From the NCBI GenBank assembly GCA_022701825.1, contig JAKONR010000293.1:1-37323 (forward strand): a DNA stretch of 37,323 nt, written 5' to 3'. How positions within the stretch are numbered: position 1 is the first letter of the stretch; each line of letters begins with the position of its first letter. Origin of the DNA: Hymenobacteraceae bacterium (GTDB taxonomy: Bacteria; Bacteroidota; Bacteroidia; Cytophagales; Hymenobacteraceae). Both the position numbers and the translations under genes were made by a program. Under the pieces are notes generated by a model. The model did not search any database. It saw only the letters and a program-made list of their open reading frames with translations, and had not been told where the DNA came from. Shown here in pieces: positions 2,581 to 12,421 of the stretch.

Positions 2581-4362
2581 TTACAGTAAGAAAATGTTAG
2601 GATTGACCGCCGCCGCCAGGGCCGCCGCGCCGGTTTCGTTGGGGTGCAAGCCGTCGTTGGTGTAGCCGGGCTTCCACAGGTTGGAATTGATAGCCGTTTC
2701 AGCCCGCGCCGCCGCGTCGATGCAGCTTGTCAGCGGGGCGGGCACGCTCCGAATCCAGTCGTTGAGCTGCGCCTTGAGCGACACAAACGCGGGGTCGGTG
2801 TTATCGTAGGGCGTGATGGTGCACTGGTGCACCTTGGCCCCGTTCGCCGCCAGCGCGTTCCACAAAGTCATGTAGCGCGCCTGCATGGCAGCTAGGCCCT
2901 GATTGAGCAAGTCGAGCATATTATTCACGCCCAGGTTGCAGATGATATGGCCGATGCCGGTGAGGGCTGGCAGCGCCACGGCGGGCTTGTCCTGGCGGGT
3001 GTAGGTGTCGAGCAGCGCCCCATACGTGGCCATGCGCGTGAACGGAATGTTAGCAGCGTTCAAGGCGCGGGCGGGATAGCCCAAATCAACTAGGTCGGCC
3101 CCGCCGCCGCCCACACAAATGCTATCGCCTACCACGGCCACGCTATCGTAGAGGCGCGGGGCGGCCGGGTCGCCCAGCACGGCAATGGGATGGTAGCTAG
3201 GCACCGGGCCGTTGTAGTTGGCGCCCGCGTTGTGGGCCACGTCACCGGCCGCCGTGCCCCGGCACGTAATGCCCAGCGGCCACTTCTCGCCGGCATTGTC
3301 CACGGCCACGCTCACGCGCAGCAGCGTCGCGCCCGCGCCGGGCTTTAGGAAGGCCGGAAACTTGTCGGTCAGGGCCGTCAGGCCGGGCAGGATGCGGGCC
3401 GAAAGCTGACCGTTGTTAAACGTTAGGGGGTAGTAGCCCTCGCCGTTGTAGAGCGCAGCCTTCACCGTGATAGCGTTCAGGCCCAGCAGCTGCCCCGGAT
3501 TTACCGCGCCGCCCGAATAACTCGCGCCCAGGCTGAAGTTGCCAAACAGCAGCTGCGCGCCGCTGGCAGCAAAGGGGGCGTTGGGCTCAAACGAGTAGGA
3601 GCGCGCCAGCTCCGTGCCATCCGACCAGCCGTTGTTATAGCCGCCGAACGTCCCGAATACGAGCGACCGGCTGAGCACGCCCCCGGTGCGGCGCACGATA
3701 GCTCGCCCCGCCCCGCCTACCCACTTGGCCGGGTCGGGCGTGGTAGTGGTGTCGCTGCCTTCTACTTGCCGCAGGTAAAGCGTGCCCTGCGAGGTCACTA
3801 CGTCGCCAGGCAGATAGTAGGTATCAGGGGCAAAAGCGCCGCGATTGTTGAGGGCCGTGGGCGTCGTCTGCTCCAACGTCTGCAAGCCGTACTGTGCTGC
3901 TACCGGATTGCCGTTTGTGTCGGTAGAGGCGGGGGCCAGGAGGTGATAGCGAAATACCAGGCTGATGCCTTTGGTATAACGCTTGGTTGGTTGTCCGTCA
4001 ATACCGCCCGCCGCGCTGGTGCTGAGTACGATGCGGACAATGGCGCTAGTCGGGTTGATGTACACGCCGAACACGTCGCCTTCCTGCACGTCGTCGGGAA
4101 AACGCAGATTGCACCCGAACGTGAGCATAACCGACCGGCCCGGCTTCAGTACCCATGTGCCCACCGAGCCGGCAGCTTCGTAGCGCCAGTTAACCCCGCC
4201 GCGCAGGTCACTTTGCGGCGCGGCCGGGTCGTCGTCCGTAACCTGGCTGAAACGGGCGTCGTCGTTTACGATGAGGGGATTGTTGCCGCTCGCGGTGGCG
4301 GGGAAAGACGCCTTTTGGGCATCGGTCAGGCCGGTTTCGGCCGGTTCGGTAGTAAAGAGCAT
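2581..4362 (-). CDS. Receptor-binding protein with CBM-like module and SGNH/GDSL esterase domain
   Basis: 593 aa. N-terminal beta-rich region. Around 175-216 lies a pattern like CBM5/12 carbohydrate-binding modules (YYLPGDVVTSQGTLYLR...DPAKWV). The C-terminal 190 residues are an SGNH hydrolase: GDSIC with Ser414, NLGVNN (block III Asn about 476) and DGLHP with Asp570/His573. The likely job is deacetylation or hydrolysis of a surface glycan during adsorption. It sits in a three-gene block of spike-like proteins near the end of the late operon, where host-range genes are expected. The N-terminus (FSQVTDDDPA...GTWVLKPGRSVMLTF) probably attaches it to the virion. The SGNH assignment is firm; substrate is unknown. 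Confidence 0.82.
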   Translation of the reverse strand: MLFTTEPAETGLTDAQKASFPATASGNNPLIVNDDARFSQVTDDDPAAPQSDLRGGVNWRYEAAGSVGTWVLKPGRSVMLTFGCNLRFPDDVQEGDVFGVYINPTSAIVRIVLSTSAAGGIDGQPTKRYTKGISLVFRYHLLAPASTDTNGNPVAAQYGLQTLEQTTPTALNNRGAFAPDTYYLPGDVVTSQGTLYLRQVEGSDTTTTPDPAKWVGGAGRAIVRRTGGVLSRSLVFGTFGGYNNGWSDGTELARSYSFEPNAPFAASGAQLLFGNFSLGASYSGGAVNPGQLLGLNAITVKAALYNGEGYYPLTFNNGQLSARILPGLTALTDKFPAFLKPGAGATLLRVSVAVDNAGEKWPLGITCRGTAAGDVAHNAGANYNGPVPSYHPIAVLGDPAAPRLYDSVAVVGDSICVGGGGADLVDLGYPARALNAANIPFTRMATYGALLDTYTRQDKPAVALPALTGIGHIICNLGVNNMLDLLNQGLAAMQARYMTLWNALAANGAKVHQCTITPYDNTDPAFVSLKAQLNDWIRSVPAPLTSCIDAAARAETAINSNLWKPGYTNDGLHPNETGAAALAAAVNPNIFLL

Positions 4363-4943: not shown

Positions 4944-5795
4944 CTAGTTGTACAGGTTAGCGTTGGTAGTGCCATCCACAAACGAGCCAGTGTAGCGCTT
5001 ACCGCCCGCCTCAAACGTCCACGGAGTAGCCGTATTGGTATAGGTGGCTGGGAAGTCAAGCAAAAGACCGAAAGAGCCGTTAATGTTGACAATCATAGTT
5101 TTAGCGGTAGAGTCGCCGCCGGGGCTCGCGTTGAACTTGAACACGCCATCCGGGTAGGGGTCGCCAAGGGTCAGCGTTACCTCACCACTCGGGTCTACTG
5201 GCACTTGCTGGGTCAGCGTAGTGGAGTAGTTGGGGAAAGGCACCGGGCACACGATAGCATTAAGCGCGTCGGCCTTGGCGGCAGCGTCGGCCGTGGCTTG
5301 GTCTACGGTGCTGGTAGCCGAGCGCGAAACGCTGGCCCCGCTAGTACCCTGCCCACATTTGGCTTGATAATCGGCGGGCGTGGTTTGGTAGGTGCCCGTG
5401 TAGGTGATGACCACGGGGCACACAATAGCGTCGAGCGCAGCCGCTTTGGCGGCGGCCAGTGCTTGCGCGTTGGCAAACTGCTGGCTCACCGACGAGCTGC
5501 CGGCACTGCTGGTTCGCGTTACCGCGTTGCCCGTCTTGCCCGCCCCGCACTTCGCCTCAAAGTCGGCTGGGGTGGTGGTATAGCTTTGTAGCGTAGCCTG
5601 ATAGAACGTGGGCGGTACGATGATGGGGGGCACGTAGCTCGTGCCGCGCAGGGTGCGCAGCAGGTCGTACCACTCTTGCTCCTGCTCATCGAAAAAAGGC
5701 CCTTCCGGCTCGGCCACATCGGGGGGCAGCCCCTTGAAGGCACGCTGAAAAAGGTGCTGAAGAATTTTGGCCGTGGCCGTTAAGCGTGCTGCCAT
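4944..5795 (-). CDS. Spike protein with two DUF5977-like repeats
   Basis: 283 aa. Two tandem repeats, about residues 73-127 and 135-183, each TTTPADF(E/Y)(A)KCG.G..G..V.R......A.A.A.AAALDAIVCPV. This resembles the DUF5977 repeats of Bacteroidota surface and phage-tail proteins, with a paired Cys at each end of the repeat. The C-terminal 100 residues are beta-rich. The N-terminal 55 residues are polar and acidic and may dock to the particle. The ATG at 5795 lies inside the putative frameshift extension of the upstream gene, which suggests translational coupling. Confidence 0.65.
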   Translation of the reverse strand: MAARLTATAKILQHLFQRAFKGLPPDVAEPEGPFFDEQEQEWYDLLRTLRGTSYVPPIIVPPTFYQATLQSYTTTPADFEAKCGAGKTGNAVTRTSSAGSSSVSQQFANAQALAAAKAAALDAIVCPVVITYTGTYQTTPADYQAKCGQGTSGASVSRSATSTVDQATADAAAKADALNAIVCPVPFPNYSTTLTQQVPVDPSGEVTLTLGDPYPDGVFKFNASPGGDSTAKTMIVNINGSFGLLLDFPATYTNTATPWTFEAGGKRYTGSFVDGTTNANLYN

Positions 5796-5894
5796 AAGTT
5801 AAGAAACTGGGTGCGCAGCTCGCGCCGGTAGTGCCAGGCGGCCCACGCGGCCAGCGCCAGCACTACCAGCGTGAGCGCTACACGCTTTTTTTTT
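5780..5894 (-). other. Putative -1 frameshift/slippage site and membrane-anchor extension of the transglycosylase
   Basis: The transglycosylase ends with CAA AAA AAA AGC GTG TAG. The nine-A run (5886-5894 read on the minus strand) contains the heptamer A AAA AAA in the correct phase. A -1 shift, or one extra A from polymerase slippage, bypasses the stop and continues as KKRVALTLVVLALAAWAAW, then HYRRELRTQFLNLWQHA and TAA at 5780-5782. That adds a basic-flanked membrane span and overlaps the next gene's start by 16 bp. The extension fills the only 80-bp hole in this stretch of otherwise abutting genes, has no ATG of its own, and its LVVLALAA..AW.Y..R pattern matches the C-terminal anchor of the gene at 7593-8000. 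Confidence 0.62.
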
Positions 5895-6870: not shown

Positions 6871-7305
6871 TTAGCGGAGATTAAGGCTTTTAAGTTTATT
6901 TACCAAGTCGCCAAGCTTACCAGAGCTGGGCCGCCACCATTCATCATCGAGGTCGCGGGTAAGGGTGGCCGACGAGCCCACGCAGTACTTGCGATTGTAG
7001 GCGTTGTACACAGCCGTTATTTGGTCGTTGGTGAGGGCCAGCACCGACGAGCATACCCGGTCTTTCAAGCCGCTCAGCGTAAAAAGTCCGTCGATGATGC
7101 CGTGCAGGTCATCGGCAAACTTCACGGCCGTAGCGTCCCAGTTGGCCGGGATGCCCGAGCCCGAGTTGGGCAGCGGGTGGTCGTACTTCATGGTATCCGA
7201 AATGCTGTTGCGGCCGTACCAATACACCAGCGCCAGGACCACGGCGGCAATAATGAAAATTTGCAGAGGTCGGCTGGTCATTACCAGCGTTAGAGCCTTG
7301 TTCAT
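6871..7305 (-). CDS. Membrane protein with N-terminal span
   Basis: 144 aa from the ATG at 7305; an upstream ATG at 7332 would overlap the neighbour by 25 bp and is less likely. Span at about 13-32 (LQIFIIAAVVLALVYWYGR), then a soluble domain with LTNDQITAVYNAYNRKYC and LTRDLDDEWW. The second part resembles a small helical domain common in Bacteroidota phage proteins (LTnDqL..VYN.f), but I cannot name it. Two Cys residues could form a disulphide outside the membrane. Confidence 0.65.
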   Translation of the reverse strand: MNKALTLVMTSRPLQIFIIAAVVLALVYWYGRNSISDTMKYDHPLPNSGSGIPANWDATAVKFADDLHGIIDGLFTLSGLKDRVCSSVLALTNDQITAVYNAYNRKYCVGSSATLTRDLDDEWWRPSSGKLGDLVNKLKSLNLR

Positions 7306-7592: not shown

Positions 7593-8000
7593 CTACTTGC
7601 GGTTGAAGTACCACCACGCCGAACCGGCAGCCAGGGCCAGTACCACGAGATAAACCCAGTTTTCTTGGCCGGTGAGCCACGACGGGCCTTTGTAGTTGAG
7701 CGCCCGGTAGAGCGAGGCCCGGCGCAGCCAGGGCGCTTGTTGGCCCACGACATCAACCTTGGGCAAGTTGTTGGCCGCGACCAACTCATCGGGGTCAACA
7801 TCTTGCGGGGTGGTGCCAGCATCGATATCTTGGCTAGCGGCTGCCTGCGAGGCAGATTGCTCAATCGCGCCAAACGTCTGGATAACGGGCGCACCGCCCC
7901 CAGCGAGATAATCTAGCGGGGCCGAGTCGGAAAAATCTATCGGGGCGAAACCGCTTGCGTTGATAGAGGGAAAGCGAGCTTGGGAAGCGGAAAAATTCAT
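7593..8000 (-). CDS. Tail-anchored virion-type protein with WWYFNRK anchor
   Basis: 135 aa from the ATG at 8000, preceded by an A-rich tract. A longer frame reaching 8279 would run deep through the gene at 8008-8730 and is rejected. The N-terminal 100 residues are polar and Ala/Asp-rich; the end is VYLVVLALAAGSAWWYFNRK. Unknown family; membrane-anchored virion protein by context. Confidence 0.66.
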   Translation of the reverse strand: MNFSASQARFPSINASGFAPIDFSDSAPLDYLAGGGAPVIQTFGAIEQSASQAAASQDIDAGTTPQDVDPDELVAANNLPKVDVVGQQAPWLRRASLYRALNYKGPSWLTGQENWVYLVVLALAAGSAWWYFNRK

Positions 8001-10078: not shown

Positions 10079-10804
10079 TTAGCTCAGCATCAGGTTGTTT
10101 TTCGCCACGGCAGCCTTCACGGCCAGCGCCTGGCTGGGGCTGAGGCTGGCACCCGCAAACAGCAAGAAATCAACCGTAACGCCCGCGCCGATGGTGTAGG
10201 TGATGTCCGACTTATCGTCGAGCTGCAACCCATCCGTGTTGAGGTCGGCCGAGTTGGTGTTGAACGAGCCACTGTTGAATGCCAAGTCGGCATTGATGGG
10301 GTAGCTCGTAGTGTCCACAAACGGGTCGAGGCTGGCCACGTTGATTTCCTGGTTGTACTGCGAGCGGGTGGCGCAGCTCAGGCGAATGGCCACAATCCGC
10401 GTGGGGTTGTACAGCACGTAGTTCAGGAACCCGCCGATTTTCTTGCGCGAGTTGGTCGAGGTGGCCACGAGGCCGGGCTTACCATCTACGTCGTTGAACG
10501 CGCCATCCTTGAGCTGGCCGGGCGCAGCCGTGGTGTCGCCCGTGTTGTAGCCCGCAAACAGGCGCGCCGTGAGTGGGCCATCGCTGGTGTTTTTGATGCT
10601 GAACCCGAACCGGCGCTGAATGTGGCCTTCCTGCGCAAACGACTGCACGTTGCCCATGATGGTGATGTCGGGGTCGCCCTGGCCGGTGTAGCCCGCGCTA
10701 TCAGCCACTTGCAAGCCCGTAGCAGCAGCGTAGCGGCCACCAGTGCCCGAATTGCGCAGCGCCAGCGCCATGAGTGCCGGCATCGTTTTGATGATGTGTT
10801 TCAT
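10079..10804 (-). CDS. Candidate major capsid protein
   Basis: 241 aa. It is not similar to anything I can name with certainty. Visible features are a basic N-terminal helix (MKHIIKTMPALMALALRN) and then a long run of predicted beta strands with polar loops (DITIMGNVQSFAQEGHIQRRFGF, LTARLFAGYNTG, FLNYVLYNPTRIVAIRLS, DITYTIGAGVTVDFLLFAG). There is no membrane span. Size and strand content would suit a compact double-jelly-roll capsid like that of PM2 (about 270 aa). Its own strong terminator and central place near the packaging ATPase fit the most abundant virion protein. The fold must be tested by structure prediction. Confidence 0.6.
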   Translation of the reverse strand: MKHIIKTMPALMALALRNSGTGGRYAAATGLQVADSAGYTGQGDPDITIMGNVQSFAQEGHIQRRFGFSIKNTSDGPLTARLFAGYNTGDTTAAPGQLKDGAFNDVDGKPGLVATSTNSRKKIGGFLNYVLYNPTRIVAIRLSCATRSQYNQEINVASLDPFVDTTSYPINADLAFNSGSFNTNSADLNTDGLQLDDKSDITYTIGAGVTVDFLLFAGASLSPSQALAVKAAVAKNNLMLS

Positions 10805-11257: not shown

Positions 11258-11846
11258 CGGCGGGCGGGGCGGCTGGCTCGGGCTCGGGTGCGTGGTTTTG
11301 CTTGACATCGACTAGCTGCGCGCCCATTTTGGTATTTAGAAACTTCATCAGCCACTCGCGGAAGTAGGCCGCGAAGCTGCCCGATTGCAGCTTGAGCAGT
11401 ACCCAGTGATTGAAAATGGCCGTGAACTTGAAGCCAAATAAGTAGCTAAAAAGCATGTCGCGCAGCCCTTCCGAATGCGCCAAATATTGCGTGCCGTGGT
11501 GTACCATCGACATAGCCAGCACGTCGGAAACCATCACGGAGAAGGTTTTTTGAAACTTGATGAGCTTGAACTTCTCGGCCTTAATCTGCCGGGCCACCTG
11601 GTAGCCGTACCACGCATTCACCACGTCCATGCCCAAAATGAGAAACGAGGCCCCCGGTGGGTGCCATACCCACGTGCCCCAGTAGGTGAGGCCGTAGCCC
11701 AGCAGCACAAACGCCACCTTCAGCGCGGCCGGCGTGATAGCCGCGCTGAAGGTTTTCAGGCCCAGCACCGTGCGCGCATAATCGGCCGGCGAGTCGAACC
11801 CCCAGGCGCGAAAGATGTCGGTAAAGAAGGTGCGGGCGTGTATCAT
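11226..11846 (-). CDS. Multi-span membrane protein, holin-like
   Basis: 206 aa. Four hydrophobic segments at about 41-61, 65-80, 102-122 and 131-152. An amphipathic region and a charged Pro/Glu/Ala-rich C-terminal tail follow. The spacing LGMDVVNAWYGY...KFQKTFSVMVSDVLAMSMV is reminiscent of the phage holin family of the toxin-secretion type, but that family is usually about 140 aa. The start overlaps the ATPase stop (ATGA), so the alternative is a membrane partner of the packaging ATPase at the unique vertex. Confidence 0.58.
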   Translation of the reverse strand: MIHARTFFTDIFRAWGFDSPADYARTVLGLKTFSAAITPAALKVAFVLLGYGLTYWGTWVWHPPGASFLILGMDVVNAWYGYQVARQIKAEKFKLIKFQKTFSVMVSDVLAMSMVHHGTQYLAHSEGLRDMLFSYLFGFKFTAIFNHWVLLKLQSGSFAAYFREWLMKFLNTKMGAQLVDVKQNHAPEPEPAAPPADEPAAETSNP

Positions 11847-12421
11847 ATCAGGGTTTCCACCGTTTCATCGTGGTAGGGATTTTTGTGGGCCTGCACGCGG
11901 CGGAAAGCGGCCAGTACGTCGGGCTTGTTTGGGATAGGTCGTTTAAGTATCTCGGCTTCTTCGTCTTGCGTTTTTTTGAGCACGATGTAAGAAGTCATCT
12001 CCCAAAAGAACTTGGGCACCCGCATCAAGCTGTGGAAGGTGAAAAGCAAATCGGCATCCCACATGCGGTGGTCTACCAAAAAGGTCTTTATCTGCTTGTT
12101 GGGGTTGGGGTCGATGTACTTCGTGCAGTCCTCAAACACTATCAAGCCGTTGCGAAACCACTTGATAATAAACGCGAACATTTCAGCGTGGTCGGATTCG
12201 TAGAAGCGCTTGATGCCCTTCGTCCAGCGCTGGAATTGCTCGCGGTTGATTTCTTGATGCTCGCGGTAGGCGGGGCTACCGTTCACGTCGATAATCAGTA
12301 CCTTTTTGCCGGGGTGCTTGGCGTAGTAAGCTTTGGCTATCTCGTTGGTACGGGTGCTTTTGCCGGTGCGCTTGCGGCCCACCACCAGCGCCGCCAGGTG
12401 GCCGCGTGTCGAGTTGGCCAT
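11843..12421 (-). CDS. Genome-packaging-type ATPase (FtsK/HerA, PRD1 P9/A32-like)
   Basis: 192 aa. Walker A at 15-23 (GRKRTGKST, Lys21), a strand KKVLIIDVNG, Walker B at 93-98 (LIVFED), and a sensor-like strand LLFTFHS with His130 preceded by DHRMWDAD, the order of P-loop ATPases of the FtsK/HerA superfamily. Length and lack of a membrane span match the packaging ATPases of PRD1/PM2-type viruses better than the longer, membrane-anchored Zot/pI proteins of filamentous phages. It would drive genome packaging. It starts 3 bp after the lipoprotein's end coordinate and overlaps the next gene by 4 bp. Confidence 0.76.
   Translation of the reverse strand: MANSTRGHLAALVVGRKRTGKSTRTNEIAKAYYAKHPGKKVLIIDVNGSPAYREHQEINREQFQRWTKGIKRFYESDHAEMFAFIIKWFRNGLIVFEDCTKYIDPNPNKQIKTFLVDHRMWDADLLFTFHSLMRVPKFFWEMTSYIVLKKTQDEEAEILKRPIPNKPDVLAAFRRVQAHKNPYHDETVETLI

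Follow-up and report, generated by a model that had tools for sequence, protein, structure and literature searches.

The lytic transglycosylase (LT) gene found in the window, by which we mean the whole stretch of 37,323 nucleotides analyzed here, ends shortly after a run of nine adenines, and a second reading frame leads from that run across the stop codon into a hydrophobic segment. This arrangement raises the question of whether a single gene directs the synthesis of two proteins, a soluble enzyme and the same enzyme fused to a membrane anchor, and, if so, by which mechanism. The first-pass annotation had argued for programmed frameshifting or transcriptional slippage at the run, and the comparison with homologous genes supported that interpretation, providing strong evidence, comparative in kind, that the gene is likely to be recoded.

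The end of the transglycosylase gene

The features of the window that are relevant to this question are the following.

4944 to 5795, minus strand: next gene, whose first 16 nt are shared with the end of the extension; its DUF5977 match lies below the cut-off
5780 to 5887, minus strand: extension in the -1 frame, KRVALTLVVLALAAWAAWHYRRELRTQFLNLWQHA, plus the stop codon TAA; ATG is absent
5828 to 5881, minus strand: predicted transmembrane span of the extension, VALTLVVLALAAWAAWHY; Kyte-Doolittle mean of 1.9 over 17 residues
5878 to 6411, minus strand: SLT lytic transglycosylase, frame-0 open reading frame (ORF); 177 amino acids, EF-hand-like repeat, C terminus QKKSV and stop
5886 to 5894, minus strand: slippery A9 run (CAA AAA AAA AGC in frame 0), corresponding to T9 on the plus strand; its position is the same in relatives
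6871 to 7305, minus strand: syntenic upstream gene, with an N-terminal hydrophobic span recognized by eye
7593 to 8000, minus strand: neighbor protein with the natural C-terminal anchor LVVLALAAGSAWWYFNRK

In the LT, the transglycosylase domain was recognized by Pfam (PF01464, E value of 4e-7, 30 bits against a curated cut-off of 21.3), and the EF-hand matches were below the cut-off. The active-site Glu-Ser pair (E42 and S43), whose glutamate we take to be the catalytic one, was unchanged in 8 of 8 aligned sequences. Neither hydrophobicity nor inspection by eye revealed a signal-like segment at the N terminus.

The last codons of the ORF (6411 to 5878, minus strand) read ACT CAA AAA AAA AGC GTG TAG, which bears out the description of nine adenines just before the frame-0 stop. 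This run is the sole homopolymer of at least eight nucleotides in the window, where random sequences with the same dinucleotide steps would hold a mean of 0.38 A9/T9 runs (300 draws). Read from the run, the -1 frame gives KKKRVALTLVVLALAAWAAWHYRRELRTQFLNLWQHA, which comprises 35 codons, contains a span predicted as transmembrane from hydropathy and flanked by basic residues on either side, and stops at 5780, 16 nt into the next gene, as had been reported. The likeness noted between LVVLALAAWAAWHYRR in the extension and the natural anchor of the gene at 7593 to 8000 is also present. The claim that the -1 frame lacks a start codon stood for ATG and TTG but not for GTG, one of which occurs at codon 9, within the hydrophobic span.

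It is possible to hypothesize that RNA polymerase slips on A9 (T9 in the template), so that some transcripts would acquire one additional A. The unslipped transcripts would yield the 177-amino-acid LT devoid of a membrane anchor, and those with the extra A would be translated into the -1 frame, giving a protein of about 210 amino acids composed of the same enzyme, a KKKR hinge, one transmembrane helix and a basic tail. By frame arithmetic, one extra A would lead to the -1 frame, and either two extra As or one fewer would lead to the +1 frame.

Collection of homologous genes

No other LT was found in the 119 other genomes of the window's own genus, and no homologue of the putative ATPase of the element (described below) was found in the 203 other genomes of its family. 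The search of the order with this ATPase matched 9 other genomes out of 390, and 10 regions were taken, 5 of which contained LT homologues, in every case accompanied by at least one further element gene. The LT frame of L023 (genome G510) ends at an A9 run and that of L024 (genome G496; the same stretch as L067, from Runella limosa) at an A10 run, the -1 frame encoding in both cases a transmembrane span and a short tail. In L026 and in the second LT of both L019 and L020, the transmembrane span is in frame.

LT homologues were obtained from the family of G510 (23 of 222 genomes), from genome_contigs (21 loci), from the class (14 of 395 genomes, including the window's own) and from IMG/VR (at least 80 loci in each of three overlapping searches), counts that do not represent prevalence because the queries were alignments of the A-run LTs. 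We classified 218 nonredundant LT ORFs ending inside their locus, in two batches of 189 and 29, and a transmembrane span was assigned where the Kyte-Doolittle mean over 17 residues was at least 1.4. The search centered on G812 reached 7 genomes and returned only G812's own two known genes. The first LT matches in IMG/VR (L006 and L007) and in phages, tailed-phage-like among the matches listed (20 of 300 phage records), were discarded as uninformative on the anchor.

Homologues of the upstream gene at 6871 to 7305, identified with an HMM, occur in L023, L024, L066, L067, L061, L033, L019, L020 and other loci, where they adjoin LT genes both with and without the A run.

The shifted hydrophobic frame in homologous genes

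A run of at least nine adenines is present in the C-terminal region of 19 of the 218 LT ORFs (17/189 in the first batch and 2/29 in the second), and 16 of these 19 have a transmembrane span in a shifted frame and none in frame. The shifted span lies in the -1 frame in 15 cases (the window, L029, L030, L198, L031, L032, L033, L061, L060, L062, L064, L202, L161, L176 and L284) and in the +1 frame in one, the LT of Tenacibaculum caenipelagi (L076, 10001 to 10597), which contains an A10 run and has a Cys-rich tail in frame 0. As for the others, the contig carrying L203 ends inside the hydrophobic -1 frame of that LT, L207 is a tailed-phage-like LT without a transmembrane span, and L303 carries the span in frame, with A8 and A9 runs located about 270 to 310 nt before the stop. 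L303 had been considered as a mirror case of the hinge run and was dropped, since its run lies inside the LT domain.

Both patterns that the first-pass annotation had proposed to look for were thus found: the A9 or A10 run is kept together with a hydrophobic -1 frame in the LT genes of other Bacteroidota elements, and many run-free homologues are natural fusions with the transmembrane span in frame. In the first batch, the in-frame span occurs in 0/17 LTs with at least nine As versus 64/172 without (Fisher P of 8e-4); with both batches, the figures are 1/19 (L303) versus 66/199 (2/27 of the latter kind in the second batch). No signal-like N terminus was recognized among the 16 A-run LTs, as judged from hydrophobicity and by eye. 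By single linkage at 70% identity the 16 sequences fall into 11 groups. When 150 LT domains are arranged in a tree, the slippage label undergoes 9 changes, at least 3 of which are forced by starred branches, and the LT of the window is placed with L038 and L045, both having an in-frame span, with 91% SH-aLRT.

This recurrence bears on the possibility of a sequencing error or a decaying gene, in which only one frame would be genuine or the tail would be junk. The quality of the draft genome of the window (G000, 573 contigs, 83% complete) speaks for it, and this genome is visibly incomplete, as no match to PF00562 (RNA polymerase beta subunit) was found in it; but the out-of-frame state with an open hydrophobic frame is repeated in 16 sequences, which derive from isolates, metagenome bins and viral contigs and include that of G510, a one-contig genome, and an artifact of this kind is hardly credible.

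Start codons in the extensions could instead suggest that the -1 ORF encodes a small membrane protein in its own right, translated by reinitiation and not fused to the enzyme. In particular, ATG occurs at codons 2 to 4 of the extension in L060, L062, L061 and L284, and GTG or TTG occurs within the first seven codons in L032, L064, L031, L161, L029 and L076. However, the extension of the window has no such codon apart from the GTG inside its transmembrane span, those of L033 and L202 hold no start-like codon at all, homologues have the span fused in frame, and a separate protein would make the keeping of the A run unneeded; we therefore consider this explanation highly improbable.

Control runs and background

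As controls we used, in the same loci, the non-LT ORFs of at least 100 codons having a run of at least nine As within 90 nt before the stop or starting in the stop codon. A shifted transmembrane span accompanies such runs in 15/17 LT ORFs versus 2/13 other ORFs (Fisher P of 1e-4). In both positive controls the run starts inside the stop codon itself, and control runs lying inside the ORF show a shifted span in 0/8 cases (Fisher P of 4e-5 versus the 15/17 LTs). The bare background is above zero, since a hydrophobic frame crosses the stop in 16/108 of the run-free LTs without an in-frame span (11 in the -1 frame and 5 in the +1 frame), some of these frames being neighboring genes with their own ATG.

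The extension has the same length in the two members of close pairs. The changes in it are distributed over codon positions 1, 2 and 3 as 0/3/6 between L060 and L062 and as 7/4/10, 4/2/7 and 8/2/7 in three Runella-type pairs, a modest bias, which appears coding-like for L060 and L062 and weak for the Runella-type pairs.

Slippage of the polymerase or of the ribosome

The same two proteins could be produced from an unaltered mRNA by programmed -1 ribosomal frameshifting at A_AAA_AAA or A_AAA_AAG. From their contexts, one of these heptamers is in phase at every -1 site (A_AAA_AAA in the window), 15 of the 16 shifts have the -1 direction, and in L032 and L064 a stop codon directly follows AAG. 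Moreover, stable folding with respect to shuffled sequences is predicted downstream of 2 of the 15 sites considered (L284 was left out), namely, in the 60 nt following that of the window (z of -2.9) and in L062 (z of -5.4). On the other hand, the remaining 13 sites have z values of -1.4 to +1.2, so that no shared downstream structure was recognized, and no general Shine-Dalgarno-like site was found in the 15, GAGG occurring only in the Runella-type L030, L198 and L031. L076 requires a +1 shift. Furthermore, a heptamer of 7 nt would suffice for the ribosome, while the runs kept have 9 or 10 nt, in a search that was centered on at least nine As.

The run starts occupy all three codon phases across the sites. 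Slippage in vivo has been described as high at 9 As or Ts, with a hybrid of 9 to 10 bp (review, PMC5009743). All 16 cases have A9 or A10, but since they were defined by at least nine As, the argument from run length is partly circular. As regards shorter runs, 9 LT ORFs, all of the first batch, contain A8; 5 of them have no in-frame transmembrane span, and only one of these 5, L008 of an Erwinia phage, has a shifted span (in the +1 frame). Among the A7 runs of one smaller listing, L068 is the only LT without an in-frame span, and it has no shifted span either.

Because runs of 9 to 10 nt are kept where 7 would serve the ribosome, one case needs the +1 frame and no common stimulator was found at the sites, the evidence, which is that of sequences, leans toward transcriptional slippage, and ribosomal frameshifting, its principal competitor, appears unlikely. 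Overall, we assign a probability of about 0.7 to the reading that these integrated virus elements possess a conserved recoding site, at which slippage of RNA polymerase on A9 to A10 would give a soluble and an anchored LT from one gene.

The run could also act at the DNA level, replication slippage making the gene alternate, by phase variation, between a soluble and an anchored state. Long A runs can be unstable in DNA (PMC3711429), and a muramidase of two Fibrella loci (L022 and L269, see below) occurs in the in-frame state. Yet, in 0 of the 11 groups of hinge-run LTs was the in-frame state found, an outcome with a chance of 0.012 if each state had a frequency of one third, and for this reason DNA-level switching is disfavored. 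In addition, all four Runella-type elements have A10 (relatives are found in Runella limosa DSM 17973 and Runella defluvii DSM 17976), and a scan of viral_contigs for the Runella-type site, allowing for other run lengths, returned one contig, which was already known. Phase variation is thus very unlikely.

The virus-like element carrying the gene

Two further genes of the window were used to delineate the element.

10079 to 10804, minus strand: candidate capsid protein of 241 amino acids, with weak jelly-roll matches and no Pfam or PHROG match
11843 to 12421, minus strand: putative P-loop ATPase, with GRKRTGKST recognized by eye and a Pfam AAA_14 match below the cut-off

The AlphaFold2 model of the capsid candidate has low confidence (pLDDT of 62.6). 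With Foldseek, its best match in the PDB had an E value of 1e-3, nearly all of the best 50 rows being viral coat proteins, and its best match in BFVD had an E value of 3e-4, with mixed rows; TM-scores were low in both cases. As single-protein queries, the ATPase and the capsid candidate gave no match in IMG/VR and in phages, nor did the ATPase in plasmids. The window also encodes a Rep_1 protein (Pfam), and the far end of this gene block (2581 to 4362, minus strand) is occupied by a 593-amino-acid protein with a GDSL lipase/esterase domain. The element is likely a tailless membrane-containing virus. Its host shares the order of G496, in which Runella occurs, and hence probably belongs to the Cytophagales, with Hymenobacter as a tentative candidate genus.

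Two loci with ATPase homologues contain two capsid-candidate matches each (L092, 8297 to 8917 and 10577 to 11302; L026, 10701 to 11435 and 14663 to 15493), which might point to a lineage of viruses with two capsid proteins in Bacteroidota.

Alternative arrangements of the anchor

P14, a virion protein of the Flavobacterium phage FLiP (CDS14, MF361639), shares 44% identity with the LT over 141 amino acids. It resembles the LT of the element in having a homologous LT domain, an EF-hand, a C-terminal transmembrane span and a basic tail, which follow one another in this order; different from the element, where the span is in another frame, P14 is encoded in a single continuous frame and has no run of at least eight As in its C-terminal region. 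CDS14 is a structural protein according to ICTV and is predicted to help in penetrating peptidoglycan at entry (PMC7654751). By analogy, the anchored form of the LT would probably reside in the virion membrane and open the cell wall at entry, and P14 may likewise be placed in the virion membrane. The anchorless form, which lacks a signal peptide, would probably serve in lysis or in setting the dosage. FLiP has no identified packaging ATPase (PMC7654751), and the profiles of the ATPase and the capsid candidate of the element gave no significant match with the 16 FLiP proteins; on the tests made, the element would not belong to the Finnlakeviridae.

In the search of the G510 family, 14 pairs of side-by-side LT genes were found, several of which are near relatives of one another (G407 and G445 [Fibrella], G642, G655, G639, G637, G486, G510, G647, G500 and G508, with three in G592). 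In all 14 pairs, one copy has a C-terminal transmembrane span and the other does not. We rejected the description of all pairs as anchored plus soluble, since, from hydrophobicity and inspection by eye, 8 of the 14 anchorless copies (L257 to L264) have a signal-peptide-like segment at their start, and these copies are probably exported and not cytosolic. Consequently, only the 6 pairs whose anchorless copy has no signal-like start (L019, L020, L038, L053, L265 and L266, from 4 genomes) directly parallel a free cytosolic enzyme and an anchored one. On one reading, slippage within a single gene and gene duplication are alternative routes to two forms of the enzyme. Nevertheless, a general need for both forms is doubtful, because in many elements the sole LT is the anchored one and L068 and L070 have no anchor in any frame examined. 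Three LT genes in a row occur in L213 (5994 to 7678), with a C-terminal transmembrane span only in the middle one.

In the Fibrella element of L022 and L269, the place of the LT is taken by an N-acetylmuramidase (PF11860) unrelated to it. Here, an A9 run (L022, 19275 to 19283, plus strand; L269, 3275 to 3283) directly precedes an in-frame transmembrane span; since each of the other two frames reaches a stop no more than 9 codons beyond the run, slippage would remove the anchor.

Taken together, we judge it only slightly more probable than a coin toss that a dual-localization device operates across the virus elements of Bacteroidota, in which stuttering of the polymerase would set the ratio of free to anchored enzyme, would be interchanged with gene duplication (an anchored copy beside a free or exported one) and in-frame fusion, and would have arisen independently, with opposite polarity, on the muramidase. 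The signal-like starts of the eight anchorless tandem copies make this reading somewhat less probable than it would otherwise be.

Comparison with known recoding systems

A gene finder working in a single frame would annotate only the short form, and the anchored form would be missed. If our reading is true, a conserved recoding site would be added for viruses of Bacteroidota, it would be explained how a compact element can have one enzyme in a free and a membrane-bound form, and a simple rule based on A runs would become available for locating hidden membrane anchors. A natural test of the need for both forms is offered by the tandem LT pairs. No report of recoding, be it by slippage or by frameshifting, through which a phage peptidoglycan enzyme gains an anchor was found among the titles and the beginnings of abstracts listed by full-text searches of open PMC; in the main text of PMC3711429, the GeneTack survey of frame transitions, the word transglycosylase is absent.

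Ribosomal -1 frameshifting at A_AAA_AAG and A_AAA_AAA is described for dnaX and transposases (PMC5009743 and PMC3711429). The heptamers of the LT genes are compatible with those sites, but here no common stimulators were found, the runs have 9 to 10 nt and one case is +1.

In Thermus thermophilus dnaX, slippage occurs at nine Ts, where RNA polymerase adds As and two products result (review, PMC5009743). The run of nine is shared with the LT site, and so would be the two products. However, the polarity is reversed: in Thermus dnaX the standard frame gives the long product and slippage truncates it, as would be the case for the muramidase of L022 and L269, whereas in the LT genes the standard frame gives the short product.

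In tssM1 of Citrobacter rodentium, slippage takes place at an A11 run before the stop, and both protein lengths have been reported to be needed (PMC4256274). In both genes the A run stands a few codons ahead of the stop; in tssM1 a C-terminal domain is restored by extra As and two lengths are made, as would be the case at the LT site. The two systems differ in that tssM1 belongs to type VI secretion and its C-terminal domain is long, whereas in the virus-like element studied here the site would join a cell wall enzyme to a membrane anchor.
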